From a bacterium (GTDB lineage: Bacteria; AUK180), in the NCBI GenBank assembly GCA_023144005.1, contig JAGLGN010000015.1:1-29829 (forward strand): a DNA stretch of 29,829 bases, read 5' to 3'. The notes below the pieces were generated by a model, which saw only the letters and a list, made by a program, of their open reading frames with translations, was not told where the DNA came from and did no database searches. Of this stretch, positions 2,994 through 29,829 are shown one piece after another. Both the position numbers and the translations under genes were made by a program. Numbering within the stretch: position 1 is the stretch's first letter; every line of letters starts with the position of its first letter.

Positions 2994-3078
2994 AACTTTC
3001 TGCCTTTCCCCTATTTAGTGTTATGATTCCGAACACTTAGAGACCCCTTTATTACTACAGGTCAGGCCTAGTGAAGCA

Positions 3079-6609: not shown

Positions 6610-6611
6610 TC

Positions 6612-6845
6612 GTGCACTGATTCATAAATATGATGCCAATGACTGAAGCTATTATGTTCAGCATGAGAGGAGCAAGCAAACCAGGGGACATAAAAAGAGC
6701 TTCAGCCCGAAGGGAATCTCATCTTTGGTCAATTTCTTCCTCTCTCTTCGCTTACGGACCACAAAGGGGACGCTACGCTCATTGTTCGTTGGAATTAACT
6801 CAAATCTAAGCATTCCATTGTCATCCTATTTATGAATCAGAGCAC
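6612..6845 (+). repeat. Terminal-inverted-repeat element, copy 1
   Basis: The left end GTGCACTGATTCATAAATAT and the reverse complement of the right end (GTGCTCTGATTCATAAATAG) match at 27 of the first 30 positions. The interior carries the family core: the 35 bp at 6718-6752 are identical to 25945-25979. It contains no open reading frame of note. The element starts 2 bp after the stop of the upstream exporter gene. I could not identify a target-site duplication. Confidence 0.8.
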
Positions 6846-6849
6846 TATA

Positions 6850-6896
6850 ATCACAAGAAAACATTCTCCACATATCTTTTAATGTCATTCTGAAAG
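6850..6896 (+). repeat. Dispersed repeat R3, copy 1
   Basis: The segment around ACATTCTCCACATATCTTTT and the following ATGTCATTCTGAAAG recurs with few changes at 7125-7174 and, reversed and less well, at 25728-25780. No protein is encoded. Confidence 0.65.
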
Positions 6897-6928
6897 GAGG
6901 TACGAAGTACGAGGTGCGATGTAGGAAG

Positions 6929-7012
6929 TGGAAAAAGAAACACACCCGTAACCGGAAAAGCAATATTTCGTATTTATCATTAGTTTACCAGTAACAAATA
7001 TAGAACGCCGGA
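6929..7012 (+). repeat. Dispersed repeat R2, copy 1
   Basis: A segment from GGAAAAAGAAACACACCCGT through CAATATTTCG, and a second block TAGAACGCCGGA, both reappear in the same order on the opposite strand at 26175-26262. The first 42 bp match at about 38 positions. The middle part is more diverged. Confidence 0.6.
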
Positions 7013-7026
7013 ACGAAGTAAGATAG

Positions 7027-7062
7027 GGGACATGTCGTACGCCATAGGCGTTCGTCTGTCCC
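7027..7062. repeat. Imperfect palindrome GGGACA...TGTCCC
   Basis: Outer arms GGGACA (7027-7032) and TGTCCC (7057-7062) enclose an inner stem ACGCC/GGCGT (7039-7043 and 7047-7051). A GGACAGG/CCTGTCC hairpin of related wording occurs at 16673-16692. The function is unknown. Confidence 0.5.
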
Positions 7063-7078
7063 GATGTAAAAGTACCAA

Positions 7079-7118
7079 GCGTAGAGTTGAAAATTGTGAA
7101 ACAATTGTCACTCTACGC
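7079..7118. repeat. Two-part hairpin in the exporter/dagK gap
   Basis: The arms GCGTAGAGT (7079-7087) and ACTCTACGC (7110-7118) form a nine-base stem. Inside it AATTGT/ACAATT (7092-7097 and 7101-7106) forms a second stem with a three-base loop. There is no T-tract on either side, so it is not a typical intrinsic terminator. It lies 134 bp beyond the end of the minus-strand lipid kinase gene and could still end that transcript. Confidence 0.5.
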
Positions 7119-7124
7119 CCCGTT

Positions 7125-7174
7125 AGAATCAAACGGAAACATTCTCCACATTTCTTTTGATGTCATTCTGAAAG
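7125..7174 (+). repeat. Dispersed repeat R3, copy 2
   Basis: Second copy of the 6850-6896 repeat, with AGAATCAAACGGAAACATTC leading into the shared CTCCACAT and ATGTCATTCTGAAAG blocks. The leading AGAATCA.ACGGAAACATTC part matches the reversed copy at 25728-25780 better than it matches copy 1. Confidence 0.65.
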
Positions 7175-7251
7175 AGCGGTAGCAAACGAAGAATCCATAT
7201 CCCTTCTTATCTCCACTTTTCAACCTTGAACTTTTGAACAATCTTTGCTGC

Positions 7252-8109
7252 TCACTCTTTGGGAGAGAGAAATTCGACTCCGCCAGGCAAGATCTCTATC
7301 TTGACCTTCTTTGAGGAGAATAACTCCCCGTCCCTTTGAAAGGGAACTTCCTTTGACGCGGTTATCTCTATATTCTTTGCCTGGAATATCTTGATATTAT
7401 GCGCATGAGTTATATGCGCGCCTACATAAATTTTCGGAAATAGCATAAATAGCCTCGCTTTGGAGAGTCCGTAGATAACGATAACCTCGAGAAGCCCGTC
7501 ATCCAGTATTGAATTCGGGGATATCTTCATCCTGCGGCCGAAATACTTGCCATTCGCGACAAAAATACCGTTAACATCCCAGAAGTCGTGGACGATCCCG
7601 TCAATATTTAGCTGATAATCCCGGGGCTTATGGTCTAAAAGAGCATGATAGAACCCTCTGAAATATGTTCTTGCCCCTTCAAGGTGTTTTATCACTTCCG
7701 CGTCGATGCCGGTTCCCATGATATTAAGAAAATATTGATCGTCCACCTTCGCAATGTCAACGGTCCTGGTCCCGCAGTCAGTCAACCCCTTGATGATACG
7801 AAACGGATGCCTATAAAGGCCGAGGCTGCGGGCAAAATCATTGCCCGATCCCATGGGGACCAGCCCGATCGAGGTATTCGATCCGCCTATCCCGTGAATG
7901 ATCTCATTCAATGTACCGTCTCCGCCTATGGAAACGATCGTCCGAACCCCGTCCGCCACATAACGGGATGCCAATTCCGAGGCATGCGAGCGGCCCTCGG
8001 TAAAGGCGATCTTGGCGGATCTATGAAATACATTCAGACAATTCAGGATACGCTTAAGGATTCCCTTGCGTTTGAACTTACCCGCAAGGGGATTGATTAT
8101 AAACTGCAT
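7252..8109 (-). CDS. Diacylglycerol kinase family lipid kinase (YegS/DagK/BmrU-like)
   Basis: The 285-residue protein has the DAGK catalytic domain: FIINPLAGK near the start, the nucleotide-binding GGDGTLNE at 62-69 and PMGSGNDFAR at 85-94. A C-terminal beta-rich domain ends with FQRDGELF, the RDG motif typical of the family. Members phosphorylate lipid hydroxyls such as diacylglycerol or undecaprenol-like substrates at the membrane. The exact lipid cannot be read from the sequence. The length is usual for the family. The start overlaps the sucD stop by 13 bp and carries GGAG inside sucD, so it is translationally coupled to sucD. Confidence 0.9.
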   Translation of the reverse strand: MQFIINPLAGKFKRKGILKRILNCLNVFHRSAKIAFTEGRSHASELASRYVADGVRTIVSIGGDGTLNEIIHGIGGSNTSIGLVPMGSGNDFARSLGLYRHPFRIIKGLTDCGTRTVDIAKVDDQYFLNIMGTGIDAEVIKHLEGARTYFRGFYHALLDHKPRDYQLNIDGIVHDFWDVNGIFVANGKYFGRRMKISPNSILDDGLLEVIVIYGLSKARLFMLFPKIYVGAHITHAHNIKIFQAKNIEITASKEVPFQRDGELFSSKKVKIEILPGGVEFLSPKE

Positions 8110-8966
8110 TTCTCCAGCAATTCCGGTATATCCTGAGGTAATTCCGCGACGGAAATGCCCATTTCGCTAAGAGCGGCGATCTTTGCCTGGGCGCTATCGC
8201 TTTTTCCGGCGACGATCGCTCCCGCATGGCCCATTTTTTTACCTTCGGGAGCGGTCTTGCCAGCAATAAATGTCACCGCGGGTTTGGCGAATTCATTCTT
8301 GATATATTCAGCGGCAATATATTCATCCGAGCCGCCGATCTCGCCGATCAAGGCAACGGAATGCGTATCAGGGTCATCCTTGAACAGTTTTAGAAGGTCT
8401 AAGAACCTGCTGCCTATAATAGGATCACCGCCAATACCGATCACGGTAGATTGCCCCATTCCTGCTTGAGTCAGAGCGTGGACGACCTCATAAGTAAGTG
8501 TTCCGCTCCTGGAGATCACCCCAACATTGCCCTTTTTAAAGATATGCCCCGGCATGATTCCCACCTTGGATTCTTCGGGAGTAATGATTCCCGGGCAATT
8601 TGGCCCGATAAGCACGATCCCCCTGCCGGAGGCATAGCTTTTCGCTTCCATCAGATCCCTGGAGGGAAGGCCCTCTGTGATGATAACGATAAGGCCGATG
8701 CCTGATTCTATGGATTCCCAAACGGCATCGATCGCAAATCTGGGTGGAACAAAAATACATGTGGCATCCGGCTTCAATTCGGCTACCGCCTGGGAGACCG
8801 TATCAAACACGGGCAGGCCGTGTTCTTTCCGGCCCAATTTCCCCGGGGTAACACCGCCGACGATCTTTGTCCCGTACTTGAGCATTTCTCCGGTATGAAA
8901 AGAACCGTCTCGGCCGGTAATCCCTTGAACTATTATCTTCGAGTCTTTATTCAACAGTATAGACAT
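8097..8966 (-). CDS. sucD: Succinyl-CoA synthetase, alpha subunit
   Basis: The 289-residue protein matches the alpha subunit throughout. The N-terminal Rossmann domain for CoA shows VQGITGRDGSFHT near residue 13, and GPNCPGII occurs at 121-128. The phosphorylated active-site histidine lies in GKKMGHAGA (His247). The enzyme interconverts succinyl-CoA and succinate with formation of ATP or GTP in the TCA cycle. It begins directly after the sucC stop, with GGAGG in the last codons of sucC, and overlaps the lipid kinase gene downstream. No missing residues were seen. Confidence 0.97.
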   Translation of the reverse strand: MSILLNKDSKIIVQGITGRDGSFHTGEMLKYGTKIVGGVTPGKLGRKEHGLPVFDTVSQAVAELKPDATCIFVPPRFAIDAVWESIESGIGLIVIITEGLPSRDLMEAKSYASGRGIVLIGPNCPGIITPEESKVGIMPGHIFKKGNVGVISRSGTLTYEVVHALTQAGMGQSTVIGIGGDPIIGSRFLDLLKLFKDDPDTHSVALIGEIGGSDEYIAAEYIKNEFAKPAVTFIAGKTAPEGKKMGHAGAIVAGKSDSAQAKIAALSEMGISVAELPQDIPELLEKCSL

Positions 8967-10109
8967 TTACGCCTCCTTTGAAGAAAGCTCGACCGCTTTC
9001 TTTACGGCATCGGTCATTGATGTCGTAGTTTCCATCCCCATGTCTTCAAGGATCTTTACGCCTTCTTTCTCATTGGTACCCGTTAGCCGGATAACAATGG
9101 GAATACCGATGTCCAATGCCTTCAATGCCGCTTTAATTCCGTTGGCAACATCATCGCAGCGGGTGATCCCGCCGAAAATATTAAAAAGGATGACCTTCAC
9201 CTTATCATTTGATGTGATGATATTCAGAGCGTTAATAACCTTTTCCGGATTTGAGGAACCGCCGACATCAAGGAAATTAGCCGGATCACCTCCGAAATGT
9301 TTTATCATATCCATTGTCGCCATTGCCAAACCGGCGCCATTCACGATACAGCCGATATTTCCGTCCAGAGAAACAAATGAAAGCCCCTTTTCCTTGGCTT
9401 CGATCTCCTGTGGGCTTTTATCGTCATTATTAATGAATTTTTCGAAATCCTTCAGGAAAGGTATTCCGTTGTCATCGACCACAATCTTAGAGTCAAGGGC
9501 GAGGACACGGCCGCCTTTAGTTATTATAAGAGGATTTATCTCCACAAGATTCAAATAAAGTTCGCGCGACATATTAAATATCTTATCGGCTATATACCCT
9601 ATCTGATACTTGATATTCGGATTATCAAGTGATAAATGAGAAAAGAGCTTTGCCTTGTGATGCGAACGAAGCCCTATTAGAGGGTCTATATCCATTTTCA
9701 GTATCGCGCCCGGATCCACCTTCGCTACGCCTTCAATATCCACTCCGCCCTCGGAGCAGGCTATAATAGTGAACCTTTCAGAGTCCCTGTTGACCATGAT
9801 AGAGAGGTAGATCTCATTCTCTATTTCCACCCCTTCTTCAACAAGCAGTTTCTCAACCTTATAACCCTTGATATCCAGCCCCCAGATCGAGTTTACCGTT
9901 TCTTTGATCTTTTCTTTTTCAGAAATAACCTTTACGCCGCCCGCTTTTCCGCGGCCGCCGACAAGGACCTGGGCCTTAACAACCACAGGAAGATCGCTGC
10001 TGCCACAATATCCTATCGCATCTTCTGCTTTATTGGCAACTTTCCCTTTTGGGATAGGGATTCCGTAACGGGCAAACAGTTCTTTTCCCTGAAACTCATA
10101 TAATTTCAT
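8967..10109 (-). CDS. sucC: Succinyl-CoA synthetase, beta subunit
   Basis: The 380-residue protein has an N-terminal ATP-grasp domain with VKAQVLVGGRGKAGGV (44-59), the LVEINPL metal/nucleotide motif, and a C-terminal CoA-ligase domain with NGAGLAMATMD and NIFGGITRCD. It pairs with SucD to form the ligase and decides nucleotide specificity, which I cannot call from sequence alone. AAGGAG lies six bases before the ATG. It follows the epimerase-like gene by 32 bp, so all four minus-strand genes may share the promoter at 10638-10666. Confidence 0.97.
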   Translation of the reverse strand: MKLYEFQGKELFARYGIPIPKGKVANKAEDAIGYCGSSDLPVVVKAQVLVGGRGKAGGVKVISEKEKIKETVNSIWGLDIKGYKVEKLLVEEGVEIENEIYLSIMVNRDSERFTIIACSEGGVDIEGVAKVDPGAILKMDIDPLIGLRSHHKAKLFSHLSLDNPNIKYQIGYIADKIFNMSRELYLNLVEINPLIITKGGRVLALDSKIVVDDNGIPFLKDFEKFINNDDKSPQEIEAKEKGLSFVSLDGNIGCIVNGAGLAMATMDMIKHFGGDPANFLDVGGSSNPEKVINALNIITSNDKVKVILFNIFGGITRCDDVANGIKAALKALDIGIPIVIRLTGTNEKEGVKILEDMGMETTTSMTDAVKKAVELSSKEA

Positions 10110-10141
10110 TGCTGCTCCTTTTTATATATTTCAATTATTTA

Positions 10142-10597
10142 TTATCCGTTCTTTCTTGCCCAATCGTAAGGGATCTCATTGCTGTCGAACGGCAGTCTGA
10201 ACTCATCGGGTTCCGCCGCATTATAAGGCCTTGATACCGTATTGATCACAAATGCCTCGCTTTCGGAAATACACATGAAGCCATGGTAAACACCTTTGGG
10301 GATCTTAACGACCTGCGGGTCATGCTCCCCGGAATAGAAGACCTGTGTCTCTCCGAGGGTCGGCGAATTCGGCCGGGCATCATGCAAGACGATCTTCATC
10401 ATCCCCTTGATAACGGCCATCAGGTCATCCTGCTCCTTGTGAAAGTGCCACGCCTTTACCACGCCGGGAAATGCCGTGGTAAGGTAAACCTGGCCGAAGC
10501 TCTGGTATATTTCATCATCATTGCGTATGATCTCCATCAATCTACCTCTCTCATCCGGGCGCCAAAAGAGTTTTTTTACAATTACCCCGTTTATCAT
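10142..10597 (-). CDS. RmlC-like cupin, probable sugar-nucleotide epimerase
   Basis: The 151-residue protein is a single cupin domain of the dTDP-4-dehydrorhamnose 3,5-epimerase type. KAWHFHKEQDD (48-58) matches the RGLHYQ region with the catalytic-position histidine, and KIPKGVYHGF (98-107) matches the conserved PxGxxHGF. A C-terminal Tyr-containing segment (SRPYNAAEPDE) also fits. It is shorter than classical RmlC (about 180 residues) and resembles the small variants found in polysaccharide pathways, so substrate and exact reaction are uncertain. AGGAG precedes the ATG. No other rhamnose genes are in the window; the neighbours are sucCD. Confidence 0.8.
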   Translation of the reverse strand: MINGVIVKKLFWRPDERGRLMEIIRNDDEIYQSFGQVYLTTAFPGVVKAWHFHKEQDDLMAVIKGMMKIVLHDARPNSPTLGETQVFYSGEHDPQVVKIPKGVYHGFMCISESEAFVINTVSRPYNAAEPDEFRLPFDSNEIPYDWARKNG

Positions 10598-10637
10598 AGT
10601 CTTCTCCTGTGGACATTAGCAAACTTCTAATAAGTAT

Positions 10638-10666
10638 ATTTTAGAATAAATCAAATAAAATATCAA
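10638..10666 (-). promoter_or_regulatory. Promoter for the rmlC-like/sucCD/dagK-like operon
   Basis: On the minus strand TTGATA (10666-10661) and TAAAAT (10643-10638) are 17 bp apart. The start near 10631 gives a leader of about 34 nt before the ATG at 10597. It is divergent from the plus-strand promoter at 10678-10706. Confidence 0.55.
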
Positions 10667-10677
10667 GGAGGGCGTAC

Positions 10678-10706
10678 TTGCAAAATCGGGCGAAATTGTT
10701 TATAAT
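10678..10706 (+). promoter_or_regulatory. Promoter for the small membrane protein/lepB/metK operon
   Basis: TTGCAA at 10678-10683 and a perfect TATAAT at 10701-10706 are spaced by 17 bp. The start near 10713 leaves about 18 nt of leader, containing CGGAG before the ATG at 10731. Confidence 0.65.
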
Positions 10707-10730
10707 TGAATTTGAATTTACGGAGTTAAT

Positions 10731-10931
10731 ATGGGAAGAAAGACTTACATAGCAATTATCGGCGTGATCCTTGTCTTAATCGGCTTGGCAATGCTTTATT
10801 TCGGAAAAGCACCATTGCCGTCCCTGTTGATAGTTGCCGGGTATACCCTCTTTGCTTTTGGACTTTTACCCGAGATCGATAAAGAAGACAAAAAAGTTGA
10901 CGATGATAATAAAAAGAAGAAAAAAGCGTAA
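10731..10931 (+). CDS. Small two-helix membrane protein
   Basis: The 66-residue protein has two hydrophobic segments (about 5-24 and 28-46) followed by a highly charged tail of Asp, Glu and Lys that ends in five lysines and an alanine. I recognise no family. It has a good promoter and a CGGAG ribosome binding site. Its last 29 bp overlap the start of lepB in another frame, so it is first in the lepB-metK operon and probably drives translation of lepB. It may be a small membrane partner of that region, but no function can be assigned. Confidence 0.65.
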   Translation: MGRKTYIAIIGVILVLIGLAMLYFGKAPLPSLLIVAGYTLFAFGLLPEIDKEDKKVDDDNKKKKKA

Positions 10932-11592
10932 GGGATTCTGGTTCGAGCTGCTCGATGCGGTCATATCAGCCGCGTTGATAGCGCTTGTGATAAAATCCAT
11001 GTTCATCGAAACAGCAAAGATCCCATCAAGTTCTATGGAAGATTCTCTGCTAATCGCCGATCAGCTCTTCGTAGACAAATTCCTCTACGGAGTAAGCATA
11101 CCCTTCACCAAGATAAAATTCCATATCATGGAGAAACGGTCTCCCAAGAAAAATGAGATCGTGGTCTTTATCCCGCCTACCTATGCGAAAAGCGATAAAC
11201 CGCTTTTTGTTAAGCGCTGCCTTGGAGTACCCGGGGACAAGTTGTATATGAAAGATAATGTCCTCTTTCGAAACGGAGAAAAGGTAGAGGAGGATTATCT
11301 GAAACTTGACAGGGGGAAAAGAGGGTATTTCAAAAACTGGCCGTTTCCCGAGAACTCACCCTATTACACCGCGAACAATGCCGATTTTTCAAAGGGCGAA
11401 CATGTCCTTCCGGGATCATGGCCGGCAAACGGTTCCGAATACATCGTTCCTGAGGAGTATTATTTCATGATGGGAGACCATAGGACCGATTCCTATGATT
11501 CCCGTTTCTGGGGACCGGTACATATAAGGAAGGTTATCGGCATCGTACGATTCCGATGGTTCCCTTTCGACCGCATTGGTTTTATTAAATAA
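10903..11592 (+). CDS. lepB: Signal peptidase I
   Basis: The 229-residue protein has one N-terminal membrane helix (about 15-33) and all signal peptidase I boxes. IPSSSMED (40-47) carries catalytic Ser44, FVKRCLGVPGD (102-112) carries the general base Lys104, and MMGDHRTDSYDSRFWGPV (189-206) is box E. It cleaves signal peptides from secreted proteins on the outer face of the cytoplasmic membrane. The frame is open back to 10834, but that part is a shadow of the preceding gene. ATG 10903 gives the typical basic N-terminus directly before the helix. No good ribosome binding site precedes it, consistent with coupling to the overlapping upstream gene. Confidence 0.93.
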   Translation: MIIKRRKKRKGFWFELLDAVISAALIALVIKSMFIETAKIPSSSMEDSLLIADQLFVDKFLYGVSIPFTKIKFHIMEKRSPKKNEIVVFIPPTYAKSDKPLFVKRCLGVPGDKLYMKDNVLFRNGEKVEEDYLKLDRGKRGYFKNWPFPENSPYYTANNADFSKGEHVLPGSWPANGSEYIVPEEYYFMMGDHRTDSYDSRFWGPVHIRKVIGIVRFRWFPFDRIGFIK

Positions 11593-11602
11593 AGGAGTTT
11601 AC

Positions 11603-12811
11603 ATGATACTTAAGAACAGAAATTTTATTTTTTCTTCCGAATCTGTGACCGAGGGACATCCCGACAAGGTCGCGGATCAGATCTCTGATGCCATCTTAGA
11701 TGATATGATCGCTGGCGACAGCAGCTCAAGGGTTGCTGTCGAAACGCTTGTTACCACCGGTATTTGTTTTATTTCCGGAGAGGTATCGACCAAAACCTAT
11801 TCAGATATCTTCAGTATTGCGAAGAGAGTGATCAAGAGAATCGGTTACACCAAGGAAGAATACGGTTTTTCAGATGCAACCGTGGGGATTTTGACCTCGA
11901 TAAAGAATCAGTCATCCGATATAGCAATGGGAGTAAATACTTCAAGCGACCATGAACAGGGAGCGGGCGATCAGGGAATGATGTTCGGCTACGCTACGAT
12001 CGAGACCGACGACCTTATGCCTATGCCCATTAATTTAGCTCATAAACTTACAAAAAGACTTGCATATGTCAGGAAAGAAAAAGCGGACCTCATCCCTTAT
12101 CTCAGGCCCGATGGAAAATCTCAGGTTAGCGTAAGGTACGAGGCCGGTGTTCCAAAAGAGGTCACCGCAGTTGTCATCTCGACCCAAACCGACGACATAG
12201 ACCTGGAACAGGTCCGCAATGATGTGAGAGAACATATAATCAAGTCCGTGATACCAGAAGATATGTGGGCAAAAGATATAAAGATCTATATTAATCCTAC
12301 GGGACGATTTATTCTTGGCGGGCCCGTCGCCGATACGGGATTGACCGGCAGAAAGATCATAGTTGACACATACGGCGGTGTCGGCTCTCATGGCGGCGGC
12401 GCATTTTCGGGAAAAGACCCTTCAAAGGTCGACCGCTCCGCCTCTTATATGGCGAGATATATCGCAAAGAATGTTGTTGCTTCAACACTCGCAGATGTAT
12501 GTGAAGTACAGATCGCATATGCGATCGGAGTAGCCGATCCGGTCTCTTTCATGCTGAACACCTACGGTACAGAAAAGGTTGACAGAGAGAAACTTGAAAA
12601 AACAGTCCGGGAAATGTTCCCGCTGAAACCGACACAGATAATAAAGCATCTTGACCTTTTGAGGCCGATCTATATAAATACCGCCGCCTACGGCCATTTT
12701 GGAAGGGTAGAGAAGCAAAGGCAAGTCAATTTCAATAACAAGTCCTTTGAAGGATTCACTTGGGAACGTACAGACCTTGCCGATAAATTGAAAACCGCGT
12801 TAAACGGATAG
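11603..12811 (+). CDS. metK: S-adenosylmethionine synthetase
   Basis: The 402-residue protein makes S-adenosylmethionine from methionine and ATP. Signature motifs are GHPDK (18-22), GAGDQGMMFGYA (120-131) and GGGAFSGKDPSKVDRS (264-279). AAAGGAG, spanning the lepB stop codon, lies five bases before ATG 11603. An earlier in-frame start at 11576 inside lepB lacks such a site and adds residues not usual in the family. There is no room for a SAM riboswitch in front of it, so regulation must come from the operon promoter. Confidence 0.97.
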   Translation: MILKNRNFIFSSESVTEGHPDKVADQISDAILDDMIAGDSSSRVAVETLVTTGICFISGEVSTKTYSDIFSIAKRVIKRIGYTKEEYGFSDATVGILTSIKNQSSDIAMGVNTSSDHEQGAGDQGMMFGYATIETDDLMPMPINLAHKLTKRLAYVRKEKADLIPYLRPDGKSQVSVRYEAGVPKEVTAVVISTQTDDIDLEQVRNDVREHIIKSVIPEDMWAKDIKIYINPTGRFILGGPVADTGLTGRKIIVDTYGGVGSHGGGAFSGKDPSKVDRSASYMARYIAKNVVASTLADVCEVQIAYAIGVADPVSFMLNTYGTEKVDREKLEKTVREMFPLKPTQIIKHLDLLRPIYINTAAYGHFGRVEKQRQVNFNNKSFEGFTWERTDLADKLKTALNG

Positions 12812-12823
12812 GAAATTAGTAAT

Positions 12824-13783
12824 ATGAGAAGAAGATTTTTCTTAATTACGATCATTGCAGTGATAATTCTTGCTGGATGCAACTCCAATAAATCGCCGGT
12901 ACTCGCCAAGGCGGGAAAACATGTGATCGCGCTTAATGATTTCAAGGCCGTGCTCAGCAATGATATTTATGAAGTGCTTAGTTCCGGAAAATTGAATCCC
13001 ATACATTCCCAGCACTTTTTTTCCGCTGCGATCGATAATAAAATCATGTATCTTCTTGCCTTGAAAGAGGGCGTAAAGATAGAGAAGAACGAGGCATACG
13101 ACAGGTCCAGACAAGTATTTTATTCCGGGAAGGGAGACTTTCTATCCTCGGTTAATGTATCGAAAGAGGAGATCGAGAGACTTTTTAATGAATACTATCT
13201 TCAGCTTCTTTATGCGGAAGGTTTGCGGGACACAATGCAGTACTCAGAACAGGACATCCTGGATTATTATGACAAAAACAAGGCACAGTACATACAAAAA
13301 CCCTTTATCAAAGGAAGCCGCATCGCGGTAACCGTAGATGATCCCGGTCAGTCCATTGCCGTCTTTTCTGATCTTCAGCAACTGCTGCGCAAGTACGGCC
13401 GCGATTACGATCTGTTTAAGAGCGCTGTAACAAAGAAATTTTCTGAGCGTATAAATATTTCGGAGAATGTCTCCTTCACCGATGTTCAATTGAAGATCAT
13501 TTTCAAAAAAAGCCTCGGAGAAGTGAAGAACCTCTTAAGTCACCCGACGGGCTCTTTTACTGAGCCCTATGAGATCAATAATGAAATTATCCTTTTCTTC
13601 ATCAGCGAAACGAAAAAAGAATCAAGGGAACAGACATATGAAGAGATCAAAGAAGAGCTCATCAGAGGGTTTTTGGACCTTCAGCTCACTTCTTTAAAAG
13701 CGGATAAACTCACGACCTTCAAGGCCTACAACCCCATCAAGGTAATTGTCGAAAATCCCGTGTCTCTTTTAAAAGAAAACTGA
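12824..13783 (+). CDS. Lipoprotein with SurA/PrsA-like foldase architecture
   Basis: The 319-residue protein begins with a lipoprotein signal peptide, with lipobox ILAGC at 15-19 (Cys19). Next comes VLAKAGKHVIALNDFKAVL, the start of the SurA/PpiC chaperone fold, and a long helical region. Residues about 145-265 resemble a diverged parvulin rotamase domain, including KSLGEVKNLL followed by TGSFTEPYEINNEIILFFI. The C-terminal helix returns to the chaperone part. Members act in the cell envelope on unfolded outer-membrane or secreted proteins. Whether the prolyl isomerase activity remains is doubtful because the domain is weakly conserved. The gene starts 12 bp after metK. A repeat element begins 7 bp after its stop. 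Confidence 0.75.
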   Translation: MRRRFFLITIIAVIILAGCNSNKSPVLAKAGKHVIALNDFKAVLSNDIYEVLSSGKLNPIHSQHFFSAAIDNKIMYLLALKEGVKIEKNEAYDRSRQVFYSGKGDFLSSVNVSKEEIERLFNEYYLQLLYAEGLRDTMQYSEQDILDYYDKNKAQYIQKPFIKGSRIAVTVDDPGQSIAVFSDLQQLLRKYGRDYDLFKSAVTKKFSERINISENVSFTDVQLKIIFKKSLGEVKNLLSHPTGSFTEPYEINNEIILFFISETKKESREQTYEEIKEELIRGFLDLQLTSLKADKLTTFKAYNPIKVIVENPVSLLKEN

Positions 13784-13790
13784 TTTATGT

Positions 13791-13914
13791 GTGTTCTGAT
13801 TCGTAAATACGGTAACAAAAGAGTGCTTAGATTTGAGCCAATTCCCACTAACAACTCATTGAGTACGGAGCAAAATAGCATCAGCCATTGTTGATCTATT
13901 TGTAAAACAGAGCC
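13791..13914 (-). repeat. Terminal-inverted-repeat element, copy 2 (short form)
   Basis: The left end GTGTTCTGATTCGTAAATAC is followed by the TTAGATTTGAG arm. The reverse of the right end reads CTGTTTTACAAATAGATC, then CAATGGCTGATGCTATTTTG, which is the other arm as seen in copy 4. Only about 124 bp long, it lacks the 35 bp core. It begins 7 bp after the foldase stop and ends 2 bp before the ATG of the cation transporter gene. Confidence 0.7.
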
Positions 13915-13916
13915 AT

Positions 13917-14813: not shown

Positions 14814-14857
14814 GCGTTCTGCTGCTACAGTATTTATGGATCTAACCTCCTCGCAAG

Positions 14858-14885
14858 TTGATTATTTTGGATTATATGTTAAAAT
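14858..14885 (+). promoter_or_regulatory. Candidate promoter for the GspE/PilB-like gene
   Basis: TTGATT at 14858-14863 and TAAAAT at 14880-14885 are 16 bp apart, in an AT-rich stretch between the cation transporter and the GspE/PilB-like gene. A start near 14892 would include the small open frame at 14908. Confidence 0.4.
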
Positions 14886-14907
14886 TAAACATCCGGAAAA
14901 AGGAGTG

Positions 14908-14991
14908 ATGTTGTCGGAACCTGGCTTTCCTGCGGGTAAATGCGGATATTCCCATCATCACAGCAAAGAAGGAGAAAATTATGAATTCTGA
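14908..14991 (+). CDS. Possible 27-residue leader peptide or small protein
   Basis: ATG 14908 is preceded closely by AAAAAGGAG and opens a 27-codon frame. It contains one cysteine and three adjacent histidines and overlaps the start of the next gene by 11 bp. The overlap could couple translation. I recognise no family and the peptide may not be made. The call rests only on the ribosome binding site and position. Confidence 0.3.
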   Translation: MLSEPGFPAGKCGYSHHHSKEGENYEF

Positions 14992-16567: not shown

Positions 16568-16569
16568 CA

Positions 16570-16867
16570 GTGTGCTATTCAATAAATACCATAACAATGG
16601 CTGACAGAAAGAAGAATGTTCAAAAGTTGAAATGTTCAAAGGTTAAAGGTTGGGGGATTAATTCCCCCGTAGGGACAGGGCTTGACCTGTCCTCTGTCAT
16701 TCCCAGGTGCATGACCTCGGGAACCCCGATTACATCGAGGAGCGGAAATCCATCTTCTTTCTTATCCTCACTTTACACCTCACACTTCACACTTCAAACT
16801 GCATTTATCGTTGGAATTGACTCAAATCTAAGCATTCCATTGACATGGTATTTATTGAACAGTACAC
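16570..16867 (+). repeat. Terminal-inverted-repeat element, copy 3 (exchanged interior)
   Basis: The left end GTGTGCTATTCAATAAATAC and the reverse of the right end (GTGTACTGTTCAATAAATAC) share TTCAATAAATACC, where other copies have TTCATAAATA. Both arms therefore carry the same change. The interior is not the usual core. It holds TTCAAAGGTTAAAGGTT text, the hairpins at 16652-16692 and pyrimidine-rich CACTTCACACTTC text. The right end closes 2 bp before the GGAGG of pilT. Confidence 0.75.
16652..16692. repeat. Two adjacent hairpins inside element copy 3
   Basis: GGGGGA/TCCCCC (16652-16657 and 16663-16668) with a five-base loop is followed by GGACAGG/CCTGTCC (16673-16679 and 16686-16692) with a six-base loop. 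No T-tract follows. They may still fold in RNA and end or stabilise the upstream transcript. Confidence 0.55.
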
Positions 16868-16880
16868 TTGGAGGGAAATA

Positions 16881-17954: not shown

Positions 17955-17955
17955 T

Positions 17956-20450: not shown

Positions 20451-20459
20451 CTTATTGAT

Positions 20460-20975: not shown

Positions 20976-20984
20976 TATTGGTCT

Positions 20985-22076: not shown

Positions 22077-22084
22077 ATCTGCTC

Positions 22085-23506: not shown

Positions 23507-23548
23507 ATGTCCTCCTATAATTTATTTATTATTCTATAATTAATCGAT

Positions 23549-23577
23549 ATTTTACTTTATTTACAGGAAAAATTCAA
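23549..23577 (-). promoter_or_regulatory. Promoter for secD-secF-DUF456
   Basis: On the minus strand TTGAAT (23577-23572) and TAAAAT (23554-23549) are 17 bp apart. A start near 23542 gives a leader of about 35 nt with AGGAGG before secD. Confidence 0.55.
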
Positions 23578-23612
23578 CATGTCTCAACCTGAATATGTGA
23601 ACCCGCGGACTT

Positions 23613-23631
23613 GGGGGGTATTTTATCCCCC
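23613..23631 (-). terminator. Hairpin after the NatAB-like operon
   Basis: GGGGGGTA and TATCCCCC can form an eight-base stem (one G-T pair) with a three-base loop. It lies 19 bp past the stop of the minus-strand permease gene and before the secD promoter. On the minus strand it is not followed by T residues; four T residues follow it on the plus strand. Termination is therefore plausible but not typical. Confidence 0.4.
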
Positions 23632-23649
23632 TTTTACGTCGCACCGTTC

Positions 23650-24813
23650 CTATTCGCCCTTGAAGATCACAGACTCCCTGTCAAAAAGGCGGAAAGCCAT
23701 TATTATAAAGAATCCCGCCAATAAAAAGCTCTCCAAGAGTGTAATGATCAAGTAATACCCTCTAACATCTCCCAAGATAATATTTTTCAGAAGCAGTGAA
23801 ATATTAACGATGGGAATGAACACCGTGGACATATCCGCCTCAAAACCTGGAAAGATAGAGACCATCGCGGGAAATATCACCGCCATCGTCAATGGCCCGA
23901 TATATCCCTGGGCCTCTTTCATGGACTTTGCGAACGATGCGATCGCAAAGACCAGCGCTGAAAAGATCATCGCCACAGGAAGTATCGCGAAGAATGCGGT
24001 GATCATGGTCTGGAAACTGATCTGTGCCGCGAATTGGCTGGAGGACGGCAATAGGCGAAAGGTCAAGCTGATAGAGATCAGAGAAGACGCAGAGGAAACA
24101 AGCGCGACTAGAACAGTTGTCAGATACTTGCCGATCACTATTTCTTTTCTAAGTATCGAGGCGGCCAGCAGGGTTTCAAGAGTACCACGCTCCTTCTCAC
24201 CCACCGAAAGATCGGTAGCCGGGTAAGAAGCCCCAGACATCGTTATAAGTATCAACATATAGGGCAATATCATTGCCAAGAACATCGATTTCATCTTCTC
24301 TTCAGAGGCGATGTTCTCTATTTTTACCATCACGGTATCCCAAATGTTGTCGGGAACCCCGTGCTCGACCAGTATTTCTTTTATCAATACATTTTCATAA
24401 TCACCCAGCGCATTACGCAGCTTCCTGAACTTAAGATCACTGGAGGTGTTCGCCTTGTCATAATGGAAGGTATATACCTCGCTTAAATTCTCGGTGCTGA
24501 ACTCGGCTACGAAGTGCAGTTTCTTGTCCTTAAGAAATTGTTCTATATCCTCTCTTTTTATCAATACCCAGTTGATATCCACTTCCGTGAAAATTGCGTT
24601 CATATGCGCCTTCTCTTCCGCGGTCAGATACCCGATATTGACCGTCTCCTGCGTGACCTTCTTCATCCGCGATGCCATAAAGACCGACACTCCGCCCATA
24701 AGAAGCGGCATTGCTATCAAAGGGATCAGGACAACACCGATGATCGATCTCTTGTCCCTGACAAGGTCCAGCACTTCCTTCTTAAATATAGACCATATTA
24801 TCCCGGCTCTCAT
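23650..24813 (-). CDS. ABC-2 type permease, NatB-like
   Basis: The 387-residue protein has one N-terminal helix (about 24-46), a large outside domain (about 50-190) and five or more C-terminal helices. GEKERGTLETLLAA follows the second helix and is the conserved coupling segment of NatB/ABC-2 permeases. The family exports Na+, drugs or other small molecules together with an ATPase. The substrate is unknown here. The start overlaps the ATPase stop by ATGA, so the two are made together. A hairpin follows the stop. Confidence 0.88.
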   Translation of the reverse strand: MRAGIIWSIFKKEVLDLVRDKRSIIGVVLIPLIAMPLLMGGVSVFMASRMKKVTQETVNIGYLTAEEKAHMNAIFTEVDINWVLIKREDIEQFLKDKKLHFVAEFSTENLSEVYTFHYDKANTSSDLKFRKLRNALGDYENVLIKEILVEHGVPDNIWDTVMVKIENIASEEKMKSMFLAMILPYMLILITMSGASYPATDLSVGEKERGTLETLLAASILRKEIVIGKYLTTVLVALVSSASSLISISLTFRLLPSSSQFAAQISFQTMITAFFAILPVAMIFSALVFAIASFAKSMKEAQGYIGPLTMAVIFPAMVSIFPGFEADMSTVFIPIVNISLLLKNIILGDVRGYYLIITLLESFLLAGFFIIMAFRLFDRESVIFKGE

Positions 24814-25547
24814 GTCTCTTCTCCTACCAATTTAAAAAAGACACTCTCAAGCGGAATATCCTTATAAGAACTCCGGAGCTCTTTCAAATCTCCCGAATAG
24901 AGCATTTCCCCTTTGTGCATGATCCCTACATCATCGCAGAGATATTCGGCCTCCGAAAGAATATGAGTTGACAGAACAAGCGTCTTCCCCTTGCCTTTCG
25001 ATTCCTTGATGAAATTGACGATAGTCCGCGAAGATATAACATCCAATCCGTTAGTGGGTTCGTCCAGTATAAGTATTTCGGGATCATTGATCAGCATTCT
25101 TGCGATAGATACTTTCTGTTTTTCACCTGTTGACAATTTCCCGCATCGTGACTTCAGGATATCTCCCATATTGAGCATCTCAACGATCTCCTTAAAGCGT
25201 GATTTTATCAGATGATCCTCTACTAAATTCAATTTACCGAAATATTTCGCCACCTCTTCCGGATAGAGACGATCATAGACGCCGGTGTTGCCTGATATGA
25301 ATCCCAGTCGCTTTCTGTGAGCAAGTTTATCATCAAAGATGGACTTTCCCTTATATAGTATATCGCCTTTTGATGGGGAAAATATCGTCGCGATGGTTCT
25401 TAATGTTGTGGTCTTTCCTGCCCCGTTCGGGCCGAGTAACCCAAAGATCCGCCCCGGTGTAACAGTAAATGACGCACCTTTGACCGCTTCAACTATTCCC
25501 TTTTTGGGAATCTTAAATCTCTTCCAAAGGTCCTTGACTTCGAGCAT
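24810..25547 (-). CDS. ABC transporter ATPase, NatA-like
   Basis: The 245-residue protein has one nucleotide-binding domain: Walker A GPNGAGKT (39-46), signature LSTGEKQ (138-144), Walker B ILILDE (158-163) and switch His195. The Q-loop region reads GFISGNTGVYDRLYPEE, as in NatA-type sodium/drug exporters. The open frame runs nine codons further upstream, but ATG 25547 has GGAGG just before it and gives the usual start MLEVKDLWKRF. It precedes and overlaps the permease gene. A good promoter and a palindrome lie directly upstream. Confidence 0.9.
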   Translation of the reverse strand: MLEVKDLWKRFKIPKKGIVEAVKGASFTVTPGRIFGLLGPNGAGKTTTLRTIATIFSPSKGDILYKGKSIFDDKLAHRKRLGFISGNTGVYDRLYPEEVAKYFGKLNLVEDHLIKSRFKEIVEMLNMGDILKSRCGKLSTGEKQKVSIARMLINDPEILILDEPTNGLDVISSRTIVNFIKESKGKGKTLVLSTHILSEAEYLCDDVGIMHKGEMLYSGDLKELRSSYKDIPLESVFFKLVGEET

Positions 25548-25564
25548 ATGTCCTCCGCTCCATA

Positions 25565-25593
25565 TTTTTACCATTTTTCGGGGTTATTGTCAA
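25565..25593 (-). promoter_or_regulatory. Promoter for the NatAB-like exporter
   Basis: On the minus strand a perfect TTGACA (25593-25588) is followed after 17 bp by TAAAAA (25570-25565). The start near 25558 leaves a leader of about 11 nt that includes GGAGG. Confidence 0.55.
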
Positions 25594-25601
25594 TTGCATT
25601 G

Positions 25602-25615
25602 CTCACCAAGGTGAG
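25602..25615. promoter_or_regulatory. Palindromic candidate operator upstream of the NatAB-like promoter
   Basis: CTCACC and GGTGAG are perfect inverted arms around AA, eight bases upstream of the -35 box. The position fits an activator or repressor site. No regulator gene is adjacent, so the binding protein is unknown. Confidence 0.4.
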
Positions 25616-25727
25616 AAATGGGTGATAGGTGGGCGAAATGAATAAAGAAAGATAGAAGGAGGAAAAGAACATGAAGAATAATTCGAAGGAAGAAAGTCCG
25701 GAGTGTAGATAAGGAGAGGGATGTAGG

Positions 25728-25780
25728 ATATAATAACATTAAAGAAGTGCGGAGAATGTTTCCGTGTGATTCTACGCCCA
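25728..25780 (-). repeat. Dispersed repeat R3, copy 3 (reversed)
   Basis: Read in reverse it begins GGGCGTAGAATCACACGGAA, then ACATTCTCCGCACTTCTTTA and ATGTTATT. This matches 7113-7165 including the CTACGCCC text just before that copy. Flanking sequence 25616-25727 has only purine-rich text with no gene. Confidence 0.6.
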
Positions 25781-25800
25781 TCCTCCCTCCACCCACCCAG

Positions 25801-26072
25801 GTGATCTGAGTCATAAATAAGATGACAATGGCTGATGCTCTTTTGCTCCGTATTCAAGGCGCGAGGAACGCTGCATACCCAGCGCGGTCTGTGAGCGATG
25901 AGCAACGCAGAAGACATATAAAGAGCTTCAGCCCGAAGGGTAAGCTCATCTTTGGTCAATTTCTTCCTCTCTCTTCGCTAGCGTACCACCAATAGTACGC
26001 CGCACTCATTATTCGTTGGAATTGGCTCAAATCTAAGTAATCCATTGTTATCGTATTTATGACTCAGAACAC
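25801..26072 (+). repeat. Terminal-inverted-repeat element, copy 4
   Basis: The left end GTGATCTGAGTCATAAATAA and the reverse of the right end (GTGTTCTGAGTCATAAATAC) both carry GAGTCATAAATA where other copies have GATTCATAAATA. The core at 25945-25979 is identical to copy 1. The left interior contains GGCTGATGCTCTTTTGCTCC, as in copy 2. It lies in the gap between the divergent NatAB-like and parS/GH18-like/parAB regions. Confidence 0.8.
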
Positions 26073-26174
26073 CATTCTCCAGGGACGGAGGTGGTGAATT
26101 TTTCAACCCACTTATTTGTCATAATTGGATGTATAAAGTTAAAATATTCAACCTTCCGTCCCGTAGGCTGATAG

Positions 26175-26262
26175 CTCCGGCGTTCTATTTCATTTATCGA
26201 GTGATTTTAACATGGTACACGAAATATTGTTTTTTCGGTTACGGATGTGTTCTTTTTCCCTT
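26175..26262 (-). repeat. Dispersed repeat R2, copy 2 (reversed)
   Basis: Contains the reverse of TAGAACGCCGGA at its left and the reverse of CAATATTTCG plus CCGTAACCG at its right. The order and spacing are as at 6929-7012. It is followed by CCTAACCTCCAGCCTCCAAC text also seen near 2683. Confidence 0.6.
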
Positions 26263-26299
26263 TCCCAACTAACCCCTAACCTCCAGCCTCCAACCTCGC

Positions 26300-26324
26300 A
26301 ATCGGGCTCCGGCGCAGCCCGATT
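26300..26324. repeat. Hairpin touching the parS site
   Basis: AATCGGGCT (26300-26308) and AGCCCGATT (26316-26324) form a perfect nine-base stem with a seven-base loop. Its last base is the first base of the parS site. It may be a terminator-like structure or a part of the partition site. Confidence 0.55.
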
Positions 26325-26339
26325 GTTTCACGTGAAACA
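26324..26339. promoter_or_regulatory. parS centromere site
   Basis: The 16 bases TGTTTCACGTGAAACA are a perfect match to the chromosomal parS consensus bound by ParB/Spo0J. ParA and ParB are encoded about 1.6 kb downstream. ParB loads here and spreads as a CTP-dependent clamp, and ParA then moves the complex apart. Position near parAB suggests the replication origin region may be close, but no DnaA box cluster was seen. Confidence 0.95.
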
Positions 26340-26381
26340 TTTTTTTCTTGCTTTTTTTTATATTTTATTGTAAATTACATC

Positions 26382-27923
26382 ATGACAAAGAAAGTACTAT
26401 TCGTTTTTATTGTTTCTCTCTTTTTTGCATCTTCGCCAAATCCAAGCAATGCGATATGGCATTGGCACAAGAACATTGTCTTCACCCCCGAACATCTGGA
26501 GATCCTGTCACGAACTGATTTTACGGACATATTCATTCATTCCGGTTCTTTTCAGATGGTCAAGGGCCATCGCGGTGACAGAAAGCCGGATTTTTCAGGC
26601 GTGGAGTTCGATCCAAACGCGGAAATGCTGTCGGATGTGTTGAATAATTTCAAAATTCACCTGGTATATACTTTTGAAAGCTGGGGGAAACATACATTTT
26701 ATTCGGATTTTATGAAAGCAGAGCCAGTTTTGGCTAGGGAATTTATAATCTCTGTTGTGAAAGACCAGATCCAACAGTTCACCGCCAAGGGGATCAGAGT
26801 AGATGGTGTTCAAATGGACCTCGAAGGAGCCGGAATCGACCTTTCCCTTTATGCTGATCTCCTTGTAGCGACCAAAGAGAGCTTCCCCGATAAAGAGATC
26901 TCTCTTTCACCGATGGTGGGTTGGCTTAAGAAAAAAGAATTCAAGAAGATCCTTGACACCATTGACTTTTATGCGCCCATGGTCTATGATTATCAGCGGG
27001 GAAAGAAATTGTCTGATGACACAAGGATCACCGATATTAACTGGATCATAAGAGTGGTGGATACCTGCGAATCCCTGAAGAAACCGTATTTCCTAGGATT
27101 GCCTTCTTACTATTACCGAATCTTTTACAATGAAGAGATGAAGCGCGTAAATTCTTGGACCTTCGTCGATTTCGAAGAACTTTCCGAAAACAAGGCTTTT
27201 TCTCTCGTACATAGCAAAAAGAATTATTCACTTTGGGATAAAGAGATGTACAATGGGGACAATCACTATTTATACCGTGTCGAGAGACCGGTTTTTTTCA
27301 AATTCTACTTTTTTCCCAGGGGATCGCACCTTCTCTTTGATGTGATCACCCCCGCCGGATTCAAGGCATATGTGGACGCGGCATATTCCCGCAACCCGGA
27401 ATTCATGAGAGGAATATCTGTTTTCCGCTATACCAAACCTGGCGAGAAGGTACTTCTCCGTACCTCTTATTTCCCCTATATTTTCGGCAATCAATCTCTT
27501 ATTCCAAGGGGCATCCCCTCTGTTAACCTTTACAATACAAGCCCGGGAGAAGAGGTTTTCAATGTATCTCTGAAGAATGTTGGAAATTGCGAATCCCTTG
27601 TCGAGTATAATTCAGTTCAGCTTCTTCTGAAGCTTCCCGGCAGGAAAGTGAAGGCGGTTGTAAAGAACAATTTTGACAATTTCGATTATTATTTCGACGG
27701 CGAAAACAACACCACTTACATAACTTTCGCAGAGAGCTTTCTTGATCTTGCCGAAGAGGTCGCCTCCGGGCCGATCACCTTGGAGGTAATGGGCGAAAAG
27801 CCGTTATCCGTATTCTATCAGACCTGGATCAAGGGCCCGGACGGAAATTACTACGGCATTGATCTTGAGAACTGGGAAGAGGCTGATATCCTGCATCCCG
27901 CCGTTTCGGCCGAGGGGGATTGA
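26382..27923 (+). CDS. Secreted GH18-like TIM-barrel protein (DUF3142-like)
   Basis: The 513-residue protein has a signal peptide (about 1-24, ending SNA). The barrel part contains VDGVQMDLEG (140-149), close to the GH18 active-site pattern DGxxxDxE with Glu148 at the catalytic position. DFYAPMVYDY (195-204) matches the GH18 MxYD strand. The segment DLSLYADLLVATKESFPDKE followed by LSPMVGWL also resembles the DUF3142 family of unknown function. A beta-rich C-terminal part (about 380-500) may be a carbohydrate or wall-binding domain. I infer a glycan-acting or glycan-binding envelope protein. The ATG lacks a visible ribosome binding site. It ends one base before parA, an unusual partner for a partition operon. 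Confidence 0.7.
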   Translation: MTKKVLFVFIVSLFFASSPNPSNAIWHWHKNIVFTPEHLEILSRTDFTDIFIHSGSFQMVKGHRGDRKPDFSGVEFDPNAEMLSDVLNNFKIHLVYTFESWGKHTFYSDFMKAEPVLAREFIISVVKDQIQQFTAKGIRVDGVQMDLEGAGIDLSLYADLLVATKESFPDKEISLSPMVGWLKKKEFKKILDTIDFYAPMVYDYQRGKKLSDDTRITDINWIIRVVDTCESLKKPYFLGLPSYYYRIFYNEEMKRVNSWTFVDFEELSENKAFSLVHSKKNYSLWDKEMYNGDNHYLYRVERPVFFKFYFFPRGSHLLFDVITPAGFKAYVDAAYSRNPEFMRGISVFRYTKPGEKVLLRTSYFPYIFGNQSLIPRGIPSVNLYNTSPGEEVFNVSLKNVGNCESLVEYNSVQLLLKLPGRKVKAVVKNNFDNFDYYFDGENNTTYITFAESFLDLAEEVASGPITLEVMGEKPLSVFYQTWIKGPDGNYYGIDLENWEEADILHPAVSAEGD

Positions 27924-27924
27924 G

Positions 27925-28689
27925 ATGAAATGCAGGATCATTGATATAGCCAATCAAAAGGGCGGAGTTGGAAAAACGACCAGCGCCATAAATCTCGCGG
28001 TGGGAATATCCTTGTGGGAGAAAAAGGTCCTTCTGGTGGATTTTGACCCGCAGGGCAATACAACAACAGGGCTTGGAATAGATAAAAGGGAAAATATAAA
28101 CAATATTTACGGCCTGATCACGGGTAAGTGCTCCCTGGACCATACCATATTGCATTTCTCCGAGTATCTCGACATTATACCGGGTGGAGAAGACCTCAGT
28201 GCCCTCCCCATGGAGGTATATAATGATAAAGATCGTCTATTCATTTTGAAAAAACTTCTTTCGGAACTAAGGCAACATTATGATTTTATCATTATCGATA
28301 CACCGCCCTCATTGAATCTGATCACATTGAACGGCATAATCGCGGCAGATGAGCTACTGATACCGGTACAGGCGGAATTCTACGCTCTTGAGGGTATAAC
28401 ACAGGTGTTGAAAACGTTAAAAAAGGTGAAGCGCTACACCGGAGAATCTATTCTGAAGACCTATTTTCTGGTCACCATGTACGATGTGAGGACTTCTATC
28501 AGCAAACAGGTCCGACAGGAATTAGAGAAGCATTTCTCCTCGGATGTCCTCAAGACAGTGATCCCTCGGAATGTGAGAATAGCGGAAGCGCCGGGATTCG
28601 GAGAATCCGTCCTTACATATGCGCCCCTTTCAAAAGGAGCGTATGCCTATAAAGAGCTCGTGAAAGAAATAATGGAGATGAAAATATGA
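27925..28689 (+). CDS. parA: Chromosome partitioning ATPase ParA
   Basis: The 254-residue protein is a ParA/Soj-type ATPase without an N-terminal DNA-binding extension, as in chromosomal systems. It shows the deviant Walker A motif KGGVGKTT (12-19), VDFDPQGN (38-45) and IIIDTPPSLNLIT. It dimerises with ATP on DNA and is released by ParB. The frame is open back to 27859, but ATG 27925 has GAGGGGG just upstream and gives the usual start. It begins one base after the upstream TIM-barrel gene and overlaps parB by ATGA. Confidence 0.96.
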   Translation: MKCRIIDIANQKGGVGKTTSAINLAVGISLWEKKVLLVDFDPQGNTTTGLGIDKRENINNIYGLITGKCSLDHTILHFSEYLDIIPGGEDLSALPMEVYNDKDRLFILKKLLSELRQHYDFIIIDTPPSLNLITLNGIIAADELLIPVQAEFYALEGITQVLKTLKKVKRYTGESILKTYFLVTMYDVRTSISKQVRQELEKHFSSDVLKTVIPRNVRIAEAPGFGESVLTYAPLSKGAYAYKELVKEIMEMKI

Positions 28690-29549
28690 GTGCCCAGAAG
28701 AAAAGAATAGGATTGGGACGGGGGCTCGACGCCCTTTTCACAGATGAAGGCTCTTCTTCAAATGAAATCCTGATGATCCCGTTGGGTAAACTGCTGCCGA
28801 ACCCCGAACAGCCGAGAAAACATTTCAGTGAGGAGAAGATCATTTCTCTTGCCGATACAATAAAGAAAGAAGGCGTTATCTCACCTCTTATTGTAATAAA
28901 GAAGGACAATACATATCTTATAGTCGCAGGCGAGAGACGCTACCGCGCCTCTAAAATTGCCGGACTGAACGAGTTGCCTTGTATTGTAAGGGACCTTCAC
29001 TCGGATGATATTCTGACCATATCTCTCATCGAGAATATTCAAAGAGAAGACCTCAACCCGATAGAAGAGGCGATGGGAGTAAAAGATATCCTTTCAAAAA
29101 CCGGGTTCACTCATGAGAAGGTCGCAAAGATACTCGGTAAGTCCAGAACCTATGTGACCAATCTTCTCCGCTTGCTAACCCTTCCAGCTGTAATTATAGA
29201 CCTGATCGCCAATAATAAGCTCAGTGAAGGGCATGGCAGAACGCTTGTAGGTATGTCGGACGAGACCGCTTTGAGATTTGCTAAGAAGGTGATCGAGAAC
29301 GATCTGAGCGTCAGAAAGCTCGAGGAGATCGTAGGCATACGGAAAGAAAGATCGAAAAAAGGGCCCAAAGCGGTAAAAGCAAAAAAAGACCTCTTTATCT
29401 CACATATCGAAAAGGACTTGGCGAATAATCTGTCAAGGGATGTCAGGCTGAGATCGAATAAGGATTATCGGGGGGAGATACGGATCTCCTTTTATGATCT
29501 TGACGATCTGAACGGTTTATTGGACTTGCTGAAAAAACTAGTGCGCTGA
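28686..29549 (+). CDS. parB: Chromosome partitioning protein ParB
   Basis: The 287-residue protein has GRGLDALF (11-18), the ParA-contact segment, then NPEQPRKHF (39-47). The CTP-binding box GERRYRAS (82-89) is followed by ENIQREDLNPIEEA (116-129). A helix-turn-helix (about 138-165) reads parS, and a C-terminal dimerisation part follows. It binds the parS site at 26324 and spreads on CTP binding. The last codons and the stop (GTG CGC TGA) are the first bases of a repeat element, so the C-terminus may have been altered by its arrival. Confidence 0.96.
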   Translation: MSAQKKRIGLGRGLDALFTDEGSSSNEILMIPLGKLLPNPEQPRKHFSEEKIISLADTIKKEGVISPLIVIKKDNTYLIVAGERRYRASKIAGLNELPCIVRDLHSDDILTISLIENIQREDLNPIEEAMGVKDILSKTGFTHEKVAKILGKSRTYVTNLLRLLTLPAVIIDLIANNKLSEGHGRTLVGMSDETALRFAKKVIENDLSVRKLEEIVGIRKERSKKGPKAVKAKKDLFISHIEKDLANNLSRDVRLRSNKDYRGEIRISFYDLDDLNGLLDLLKKLVR

Positions 29550-29711
29550 TTATAAATATGTTAACAATGGAACGCTTAGATTTTAGTCAATTCCAACGAA
29601 CAATAAGCGCAGCGTACCCTCTGTGGTCCGTAAGCGAAGCGAGAGGAAGAAATTGACCAAAGATGATCTTCCCTTCGGGTTGAATCTCTTTTTCTGTCTT
29701 CTGTGTTGCCA
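29541..29711 (-). repeat. Terminal-inverted-repeat element, copy 5 (one end missing)
   Basis: It begins GTGCGCTGATTATAAATATG, then carries the TTAGATTTTAGTCAATTCCAAC arm (split here as TTAGATTTT and AGTCAATTCC) and the reversed core with AAATTGACCAAAGATGA. The expected opposite terminal repeat is absent; after 171 bp a second copy starts. The first nine bases are the end of parB, including its stop codon. Confidence 0.75.
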
Positions 29712-29829
29712 GTGCTCTTTTTCATAAATACGATGACAATGGAATGTTTAGATTTGAGTCAATTCCAACGAACAATAAGCGCAGCGTACCCTCTGTGGTC
29801 CGTAAGCGAAGCGAGAGGAAGAAATTGAC
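29712..29829 (-). repeat. Terminal-inverted-repeat element, copy 6 (cut by window end)
   Basis: It starts GTGCTCTTTTTCATAAATAC in the same orientation as copy 5. The 73 bases at 29757-29829 are identical to 29585-29657. The first 45 bases differ at several positions, so the two are not a simple recent duplication over their whole length. Confidence 0.75.

Follow-up and report, generated by a model that had tools for sequence, protein, structure and literature searches.

Why the two ends of an intergenic repeat that encodes no protein should carry the same variants within one copy is the question raised by contig C7 of a draft bacterial genome of 2.67 Mb in 38 contigs (G000), whose 29,829 nt form the window analysed here. 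A preliminary description had read the repeats of this window as a non-coding, multicopy, MITE-like family lacking an internal transposase, and the copies that we examined bear this out. We propose a non-autonomous mobile element of the MITE class, moved by an enzyme acting in trans on a TA target, whose matched ends would descend from few source lineages and whose interiors would be exchangeable; we give this reading a probability of about 0.65.

Architecture and distribution of the repeat

The element consensus is an imperfect palindrome of 274 bp, made of a left module of ~102 nt and a right module of ~172 nt that are diverged inverted copies of each other. Aligned over its full length, it matches its reverse complement at 66% identity, and both strands fold end to end (minimum free energies of -101 and -107 kcal/mol). 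The terminal inverted repeats span ~32 nt (AGTGNTCTGATTCATAAATACGRTRACAATGG), the end sequence reading TAGTGNTCTGATTCATAAATA, so that the element has the short, transposase-free build of a MITE. Facing arms mostly lie 206-208 nt apart (207 nt in most full copies) and the remaining spacings fit added modules, since tandem multiplication was seen for left as well as right modules, in arrays such as L-L-R-R. In the DNA around the matches, no facing pair of terminal repeats enclosed a transposase-sized interior; spacings reached ~580 nt at most, the larger ones being mostly arrays, and an autonomous copy with a large interior was rejected on this ground.

Six copies had been claimed in the window, of which four are two-armed, one of them degenerate, while the remaining two consist of right modules in tandem, truncated where the contig ends. 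Copy 1 (6611-6846, plus strand, 236 nt) directly follows the stop codon of an ABC-transporter gene and joins a shortened left module to a full right module, with terminal repeats at 6612-6642 (plus) and 6815-6846 (minus); its ortholog in the sister species (G001) is 94.7% identical in the interior. Copy 2 (13790-13916, minus strand) is the degenerate one, a 127-nt remnant that fills the gap between two genes and whose arms are unmatched to each other (18/32); at this locus, the sister species has the same ends around a ~600-nt composite containing a full element. Copy 3 (16569-16868, plus strand) begins right after one stop codon and stops just before the ribosome-binding site of the next gene, its arms being conserved and its interior replaced. 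Copy 4 (25800-26073, plus strand) is full-length (274 nt) and belongs to a subfamily with GAGTC ends, the variant being present in both the left (25801-25831, plus) and the right (26042-26073, minus) terminal repeat. It is flanked by CCCACCCAG and ATTCTCCAG, a repeated composite, and is missing from the sister species at this place. Reading the sequence again, we recovered the matched variants reported for both arms of copy 1 (GATTCATAAATA), copy 3 (TTCAATAAATACC) and copy 4 (GAGTCATAAATA).

The tandem right modules (29540-29710 and 29711-29829) lie in reverse orientation with a period of 172 nt; the end of the first lies in parB, and the second is cut off at 29829. At 29540-29549, parB takes its final codons and its stop from the element end, which in G001 yields a different C-terminus.

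The similarity is far from limited to these six copies. A 25-nt end pattern, allowing up to three mismatches, gave 171 matches in G000 against 0 for the reversed control pattern. A second end pattern detected 196 ends in G000, 239 in G001, which is the only other genome of the genus in the comparison, and 0-2 in 39 other genomes, three of them from the same family. Among 60 genomes searched, the full consensus was present in G000 and G001 only. The repeat family is real and genome-wide and, among the genomes searched, the element is confined to one genus. Only 2 of 87 clusters lay inside an ORF; with its 196 ends in G000, the element thus shows the many dispersed intergenic copies expected of a MITE. 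No element matches were found in viral contigs or plasmids; the phage records, searched with one window gene, returned glmS fragments only. Searches against Rfam 15 left the window without a hit at gathering scores, and in three loci nothing matched the element at E≤1.

Mobility, target site and candidate movers

Mobility of the kind expected of a MITE is visible at two orthologous loci that are occupied in G000 and empty in G001 (C35:10222-10742 and C35:211037). At the former, the empty site reads AAAATTAATAAGCGAGG against AAAATTAATAAGTG...CACTAAGCGGGG in the occupied one, with TA or TAA duplicated; the latter is less clean and does not restore a clean TA. Genome-wide, TA borders 98 of 211 ends (46%), giving the flanked form TAGTG...CACTA, the next base outward is rarely G (14/211 ends), and TA stands at both ends in only 11 of about 70 two-armed copies. 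On the sequence of these borders, TA is the likely target for insertion.

Copies have also been lost. At C35:17366-17638, G001 keeps only AGTGTTCT-TATTCAGATCACT, a palindromic footprint as would be left by loss of the DNA between two copies of TGATTCA, the 7-nt direct repeat inside the arms; locus L036 represents the reverse case, with a ~633-nt composite in G001 and a footprint in G000. Members of the GAGTC end subfamily mostly share their flanks (CCCACCCAG / ATTCTCCAG), in the window at 25791-25799 and 26074-26083 and at many other loci, so that the element seemingly inserted into another repeat and the composite then multiplied.

The enzyme acting in trans, which we infer from the element and not from a gene found, would be IS630/Tc1-mariner-like or of an unrecognised type. 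Our search for an enzyme of this group, which covered DDE_3 (the IS630 domain), found no such transposase in G000 or G001. The DDE_3 partner with matching ends that would mark an IS630/Tc1-mariner MITE is found in neither, and an IS630 partner identified through DDE_3 was rejected, the domain being missing from both genomes of the genus.

The preliminary description had also considered a REPIN and suggested looking for a RAYT gene with matching ends. The inverted-dimer architecture, with its 66% identity to the reverse complement, would suit a REPIN, and G000 does contain five RAYT-like Y1 transposase (Y1_Tnp) genes (L031-L035, at C25:41650, C25:45530, C33:42723, C13:249217 and C1:22136), of which the fragments searched score below the NCBIfam cut-off. 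However, none of the five has element ends adjoining it, and different inverted repeats (TTATGCAACAAATGCAACAACCGTCCCC; AAACTCTTCACACTCTTCACCAACGTCCCT) border the RAYT genes for which the flanks were inspected, at least two of these having short inverted repeats of their own (TTATGCAACA...CAACCGTCCCC; AAACTCTTCACACTCTTCACCAACGTCCCT). Moreover, the ends read TAGTGNTCTGATTCATAAATA, without a GT(A/G)G head, and are TA-flanked, unlike those of IS200/IS605-type enzymes, which make no larger duplication (PMC2817692). As we found neither a RAYT gene flanked by the same repeat nor a GT(A/G)G head followed by a GC-rich hairpin, we regard mobilisation by any of these RAYTs as very improbable and do not class the element as a REPIN.

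Co-variation of the arms and its origin

That arms co-vary within copies, as had been claimed, is confirmed far beyond chance by permutation and by tree-based tests. In 69 two-armed copies from both species, the mean identity of the two arms was 26.8/32, compared with 25.0±0.17 when the right arms were permuted, and none of 5000 permutations reached the observed value, so that the arms do not vary independently. Likewise, arms shared 108 non-consensus states (46±6 permuted), and rare matched states numbered 26 against 3.1 by permutation. The covariation analysis that had been called for was run on 65 full-length copies as an R-scape-like test, combining a G-test with average-product correction and a null in which parsimony changes were redistributed along the tree. 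An arm-partner pair ranked first of 36,585 column pairs, and arm partners made up 5 of the top 12. Under this conservative tree null no single column pair was significant (best E~0.65); only the set was, with a summed partner-column covariation of 285 against 0±19 (maximum 78 in 300 simulations) that fell to ~0 once partners were slid by 1-3 columns. The 66 pairs of the inner stem, on the other hand, showed no covariation (11.9 vs 1.9±22). Covariation is confined to the terminal partner columns.

Matched double changes occurred on 23 branches, compared with 3.1 in simulations (maximum 8). Since the tree rests mostly on interiors, ends may be misplaced where interiors were exchanged, and some of these 23 branches may represent one end lineage placed on several branches. 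Clusters of matched changes that are rare in other ends occur at C34:46487, which carries three of them (positions 14, 17 and 20), the C at position 20 occurring in no other end of 254, and also at C20:57901 (positions 9 and 14) and C6:75292 (positions 11 and 14).

Such arms might be expected if selection kept the entire element able to pair into a hairpin of RNA or DNA, acting as an mRNA 3' stabiliser, an RNase III site or a terminator. The consensus does fold end to end, and 26 of 84 ends facing the 3' end of a gene are no more than 15 nt away from its stop codon, as counted with simple ORF calls and without a null model. This proximity fits insertion tolerance downstream of genes, and a putative role in mRNA 3' ends is possible. 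Against selection on the hairpin stand the 66 inner-stem pairs without covariation, mismatches rich in transversions (111/190, two columns excluded), no strong G-U excess on one strand (28 vs 51), the lack of an Rfam match and the wholesale replacement of interiors, and we consider it improbable. In particular, a whole-element RNA structure was rejected because inner covariation is absent; a naive RNAalifold consensus carried no information on the inner stem.

Template switching, in which a hairpin formed during replication would let one arm be copied from the other and match several sites at once, is a more serious but still tentative alternative. It is an established mechanism at hairpins (PMC8794818; PMC8604942), and it would account for the excess of matched double-change branches and for the clustered changes at C34:46487, C20:57901 and C6:75292; simple founder inheritance explains the triple match at C34:46487 less well than copying between arms does. 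Yet the inner palindrome should also have been converted and shows no covariation, part of the 23 events may stem from interior exchange misplacing ends on an interior-based tree, and differences between resident orthologs are one-sided. Among orthologous resident copies with unique flanks in the two species, we counted by eye about two dozen arm changes, none of them a clean matched pair and one of them ambiguous (C2:13570, column 23), in the few comparisons with both arms available. Copy 3, the best of the examples first put forward, cannot be polarised: its right arm reads TTCC in G001 and TTCA here, but the neighbouring gene, and hence the left arm, is missing from the G001 assembly.

Taken together, the one-sided changes between orthologs and the inner palindrome without covariation suggest that matched ends are inherited from source lineages: arms seem to have been matched there and not maintained in place. 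The choice originally offered, between selection for pairing and copying of one arm from the other, was therefore too narrow in lacking this third route, although arm copying does fit C34:46487. According to our proposal, a few source lineages would insert copies, each bearing two matching ends, since recognition would require both at once; sub-families would hence be told apart by their matched end variants. Once a copy is inserted, its arms would decay independently, and the interior could be lost by hairpin-driven deletion or replaced via recombination or gap repair with other repeats. Consequently, the two ends would have a longer common history than either has with the DNA between them.

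Interior exchange, neighbouring repeats and relation to known families

Replacement of interiors is most evident at C30:29997, where the end is identical to that on G001 contig C50 (33/33) and the outer flank is 98% identical, while the interior differs from the first inner bases. A retained end with a different interior in G001 was also found at window copies 2 and 3 and at the parB-side end (29540). Both genomes are draft MAGs, and chimeric assembly is a possible source of apparent interior swaps; 33 nt of repeat would rarely be enough to mislead an assembler, but longer composites might be. It is conceivable, though unlikely, that the ends are stable address sites at which a process acting on matched terminal repeats swaps whole interiors, both ends staying and co-evolving as a pair. 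If this were true, intergenic DNA would be reshuffled as cassettes between genomic sites.

The element has other repeats as neighbours. A second intergenic family (GGAGAATGTTTCCGTGTGATTCTA) adjoins it in the window (6846-6896, 7124-7174 and 25741-25774), and further shared intergenic modules (CACACCCGTAACCGGAAAA...; GGGACATGTCGTACGCC...GTTCGTCTGTCCCGATG) lie at 6921-7060 and 26219-26269. In G000, a larger inverted repeat at C28:21040-21500 (GGAGTTTTGATCCGTCTTTGCT) surrounds a GC-hairpin cassette and one end of the element, which seems to be nested here in a further repeat family. The intergenic DNA resembles a patchwork of several repeat families, and most of it is replaced between the species, whose genes are roughly 93-98% identical. 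At locus L088, tRNA matches lie at 2955-3027 (minus) and 3154-3226 (plus), with a partial third at 3236-3273 (plus), slightly more than 1 kb from an element copy.

Among known systems, RUP of Streptococcus pneumoniae and the Correia elements of Neisseria resemble the element in being short, non-coding, intergenic and folded, with terminal inverted repeats and ~100-200 copies, and both have a TA target. As judged from their descriptions, the element differs from them in being longer and palindromic throughout and in having interiors exchanged behind retained ends. Furthermore, RUP has a proposed IS630 partner (PMC3049150), whereas G000 and G001 lack a DDE_3 transposase. BOX of S. pneumoniae, with end modules and a variable number of internal modules over 67-637 bp (PMC3049150), is similarly modular and highly variable in size, but in the element both left and right modules multiply (L-L-R-R) and the whole is an imperfect palindrome. 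REPINs and REPs with a RAYT share the dispersed inverted pair of related modules and the presence of RAYT genes in the genome; here, however, the RAYTs have other flanking repeats, and the ends are TA-flanked and without a GT(A/G)G head. Finally, ERIC/IRU sequences of enterobacteria are, like the element, imperfect palindromes, intergenic and high in copy number; they measure 127 bp against its 274 bp, and its taxonomic range is one genus. Copy numbers for ERIC/IRU are given in PMC10969869. The repeat is best called a MITE-class element found only within its genus in the databases searched, the MITE class itself being already known.

Quantitative examples such as this family are rare: both ends of a small mobile repeat co-vary, the remainder of the full-length palindrome lacks the signal, and a close sister species allows changes at insertion to be told from later ones. 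The family also illustrates that a selected structure cannot be concluded from co-varying arms alone. Genes remain roughly 93-98% identical, while the DNA between them is remodelled through duplicated modules, hairpin deletion and replaced interiors. With ~200 ends per genome, the element thus represents an unusually well-documented case of how gene-free genomic parasites evolve.
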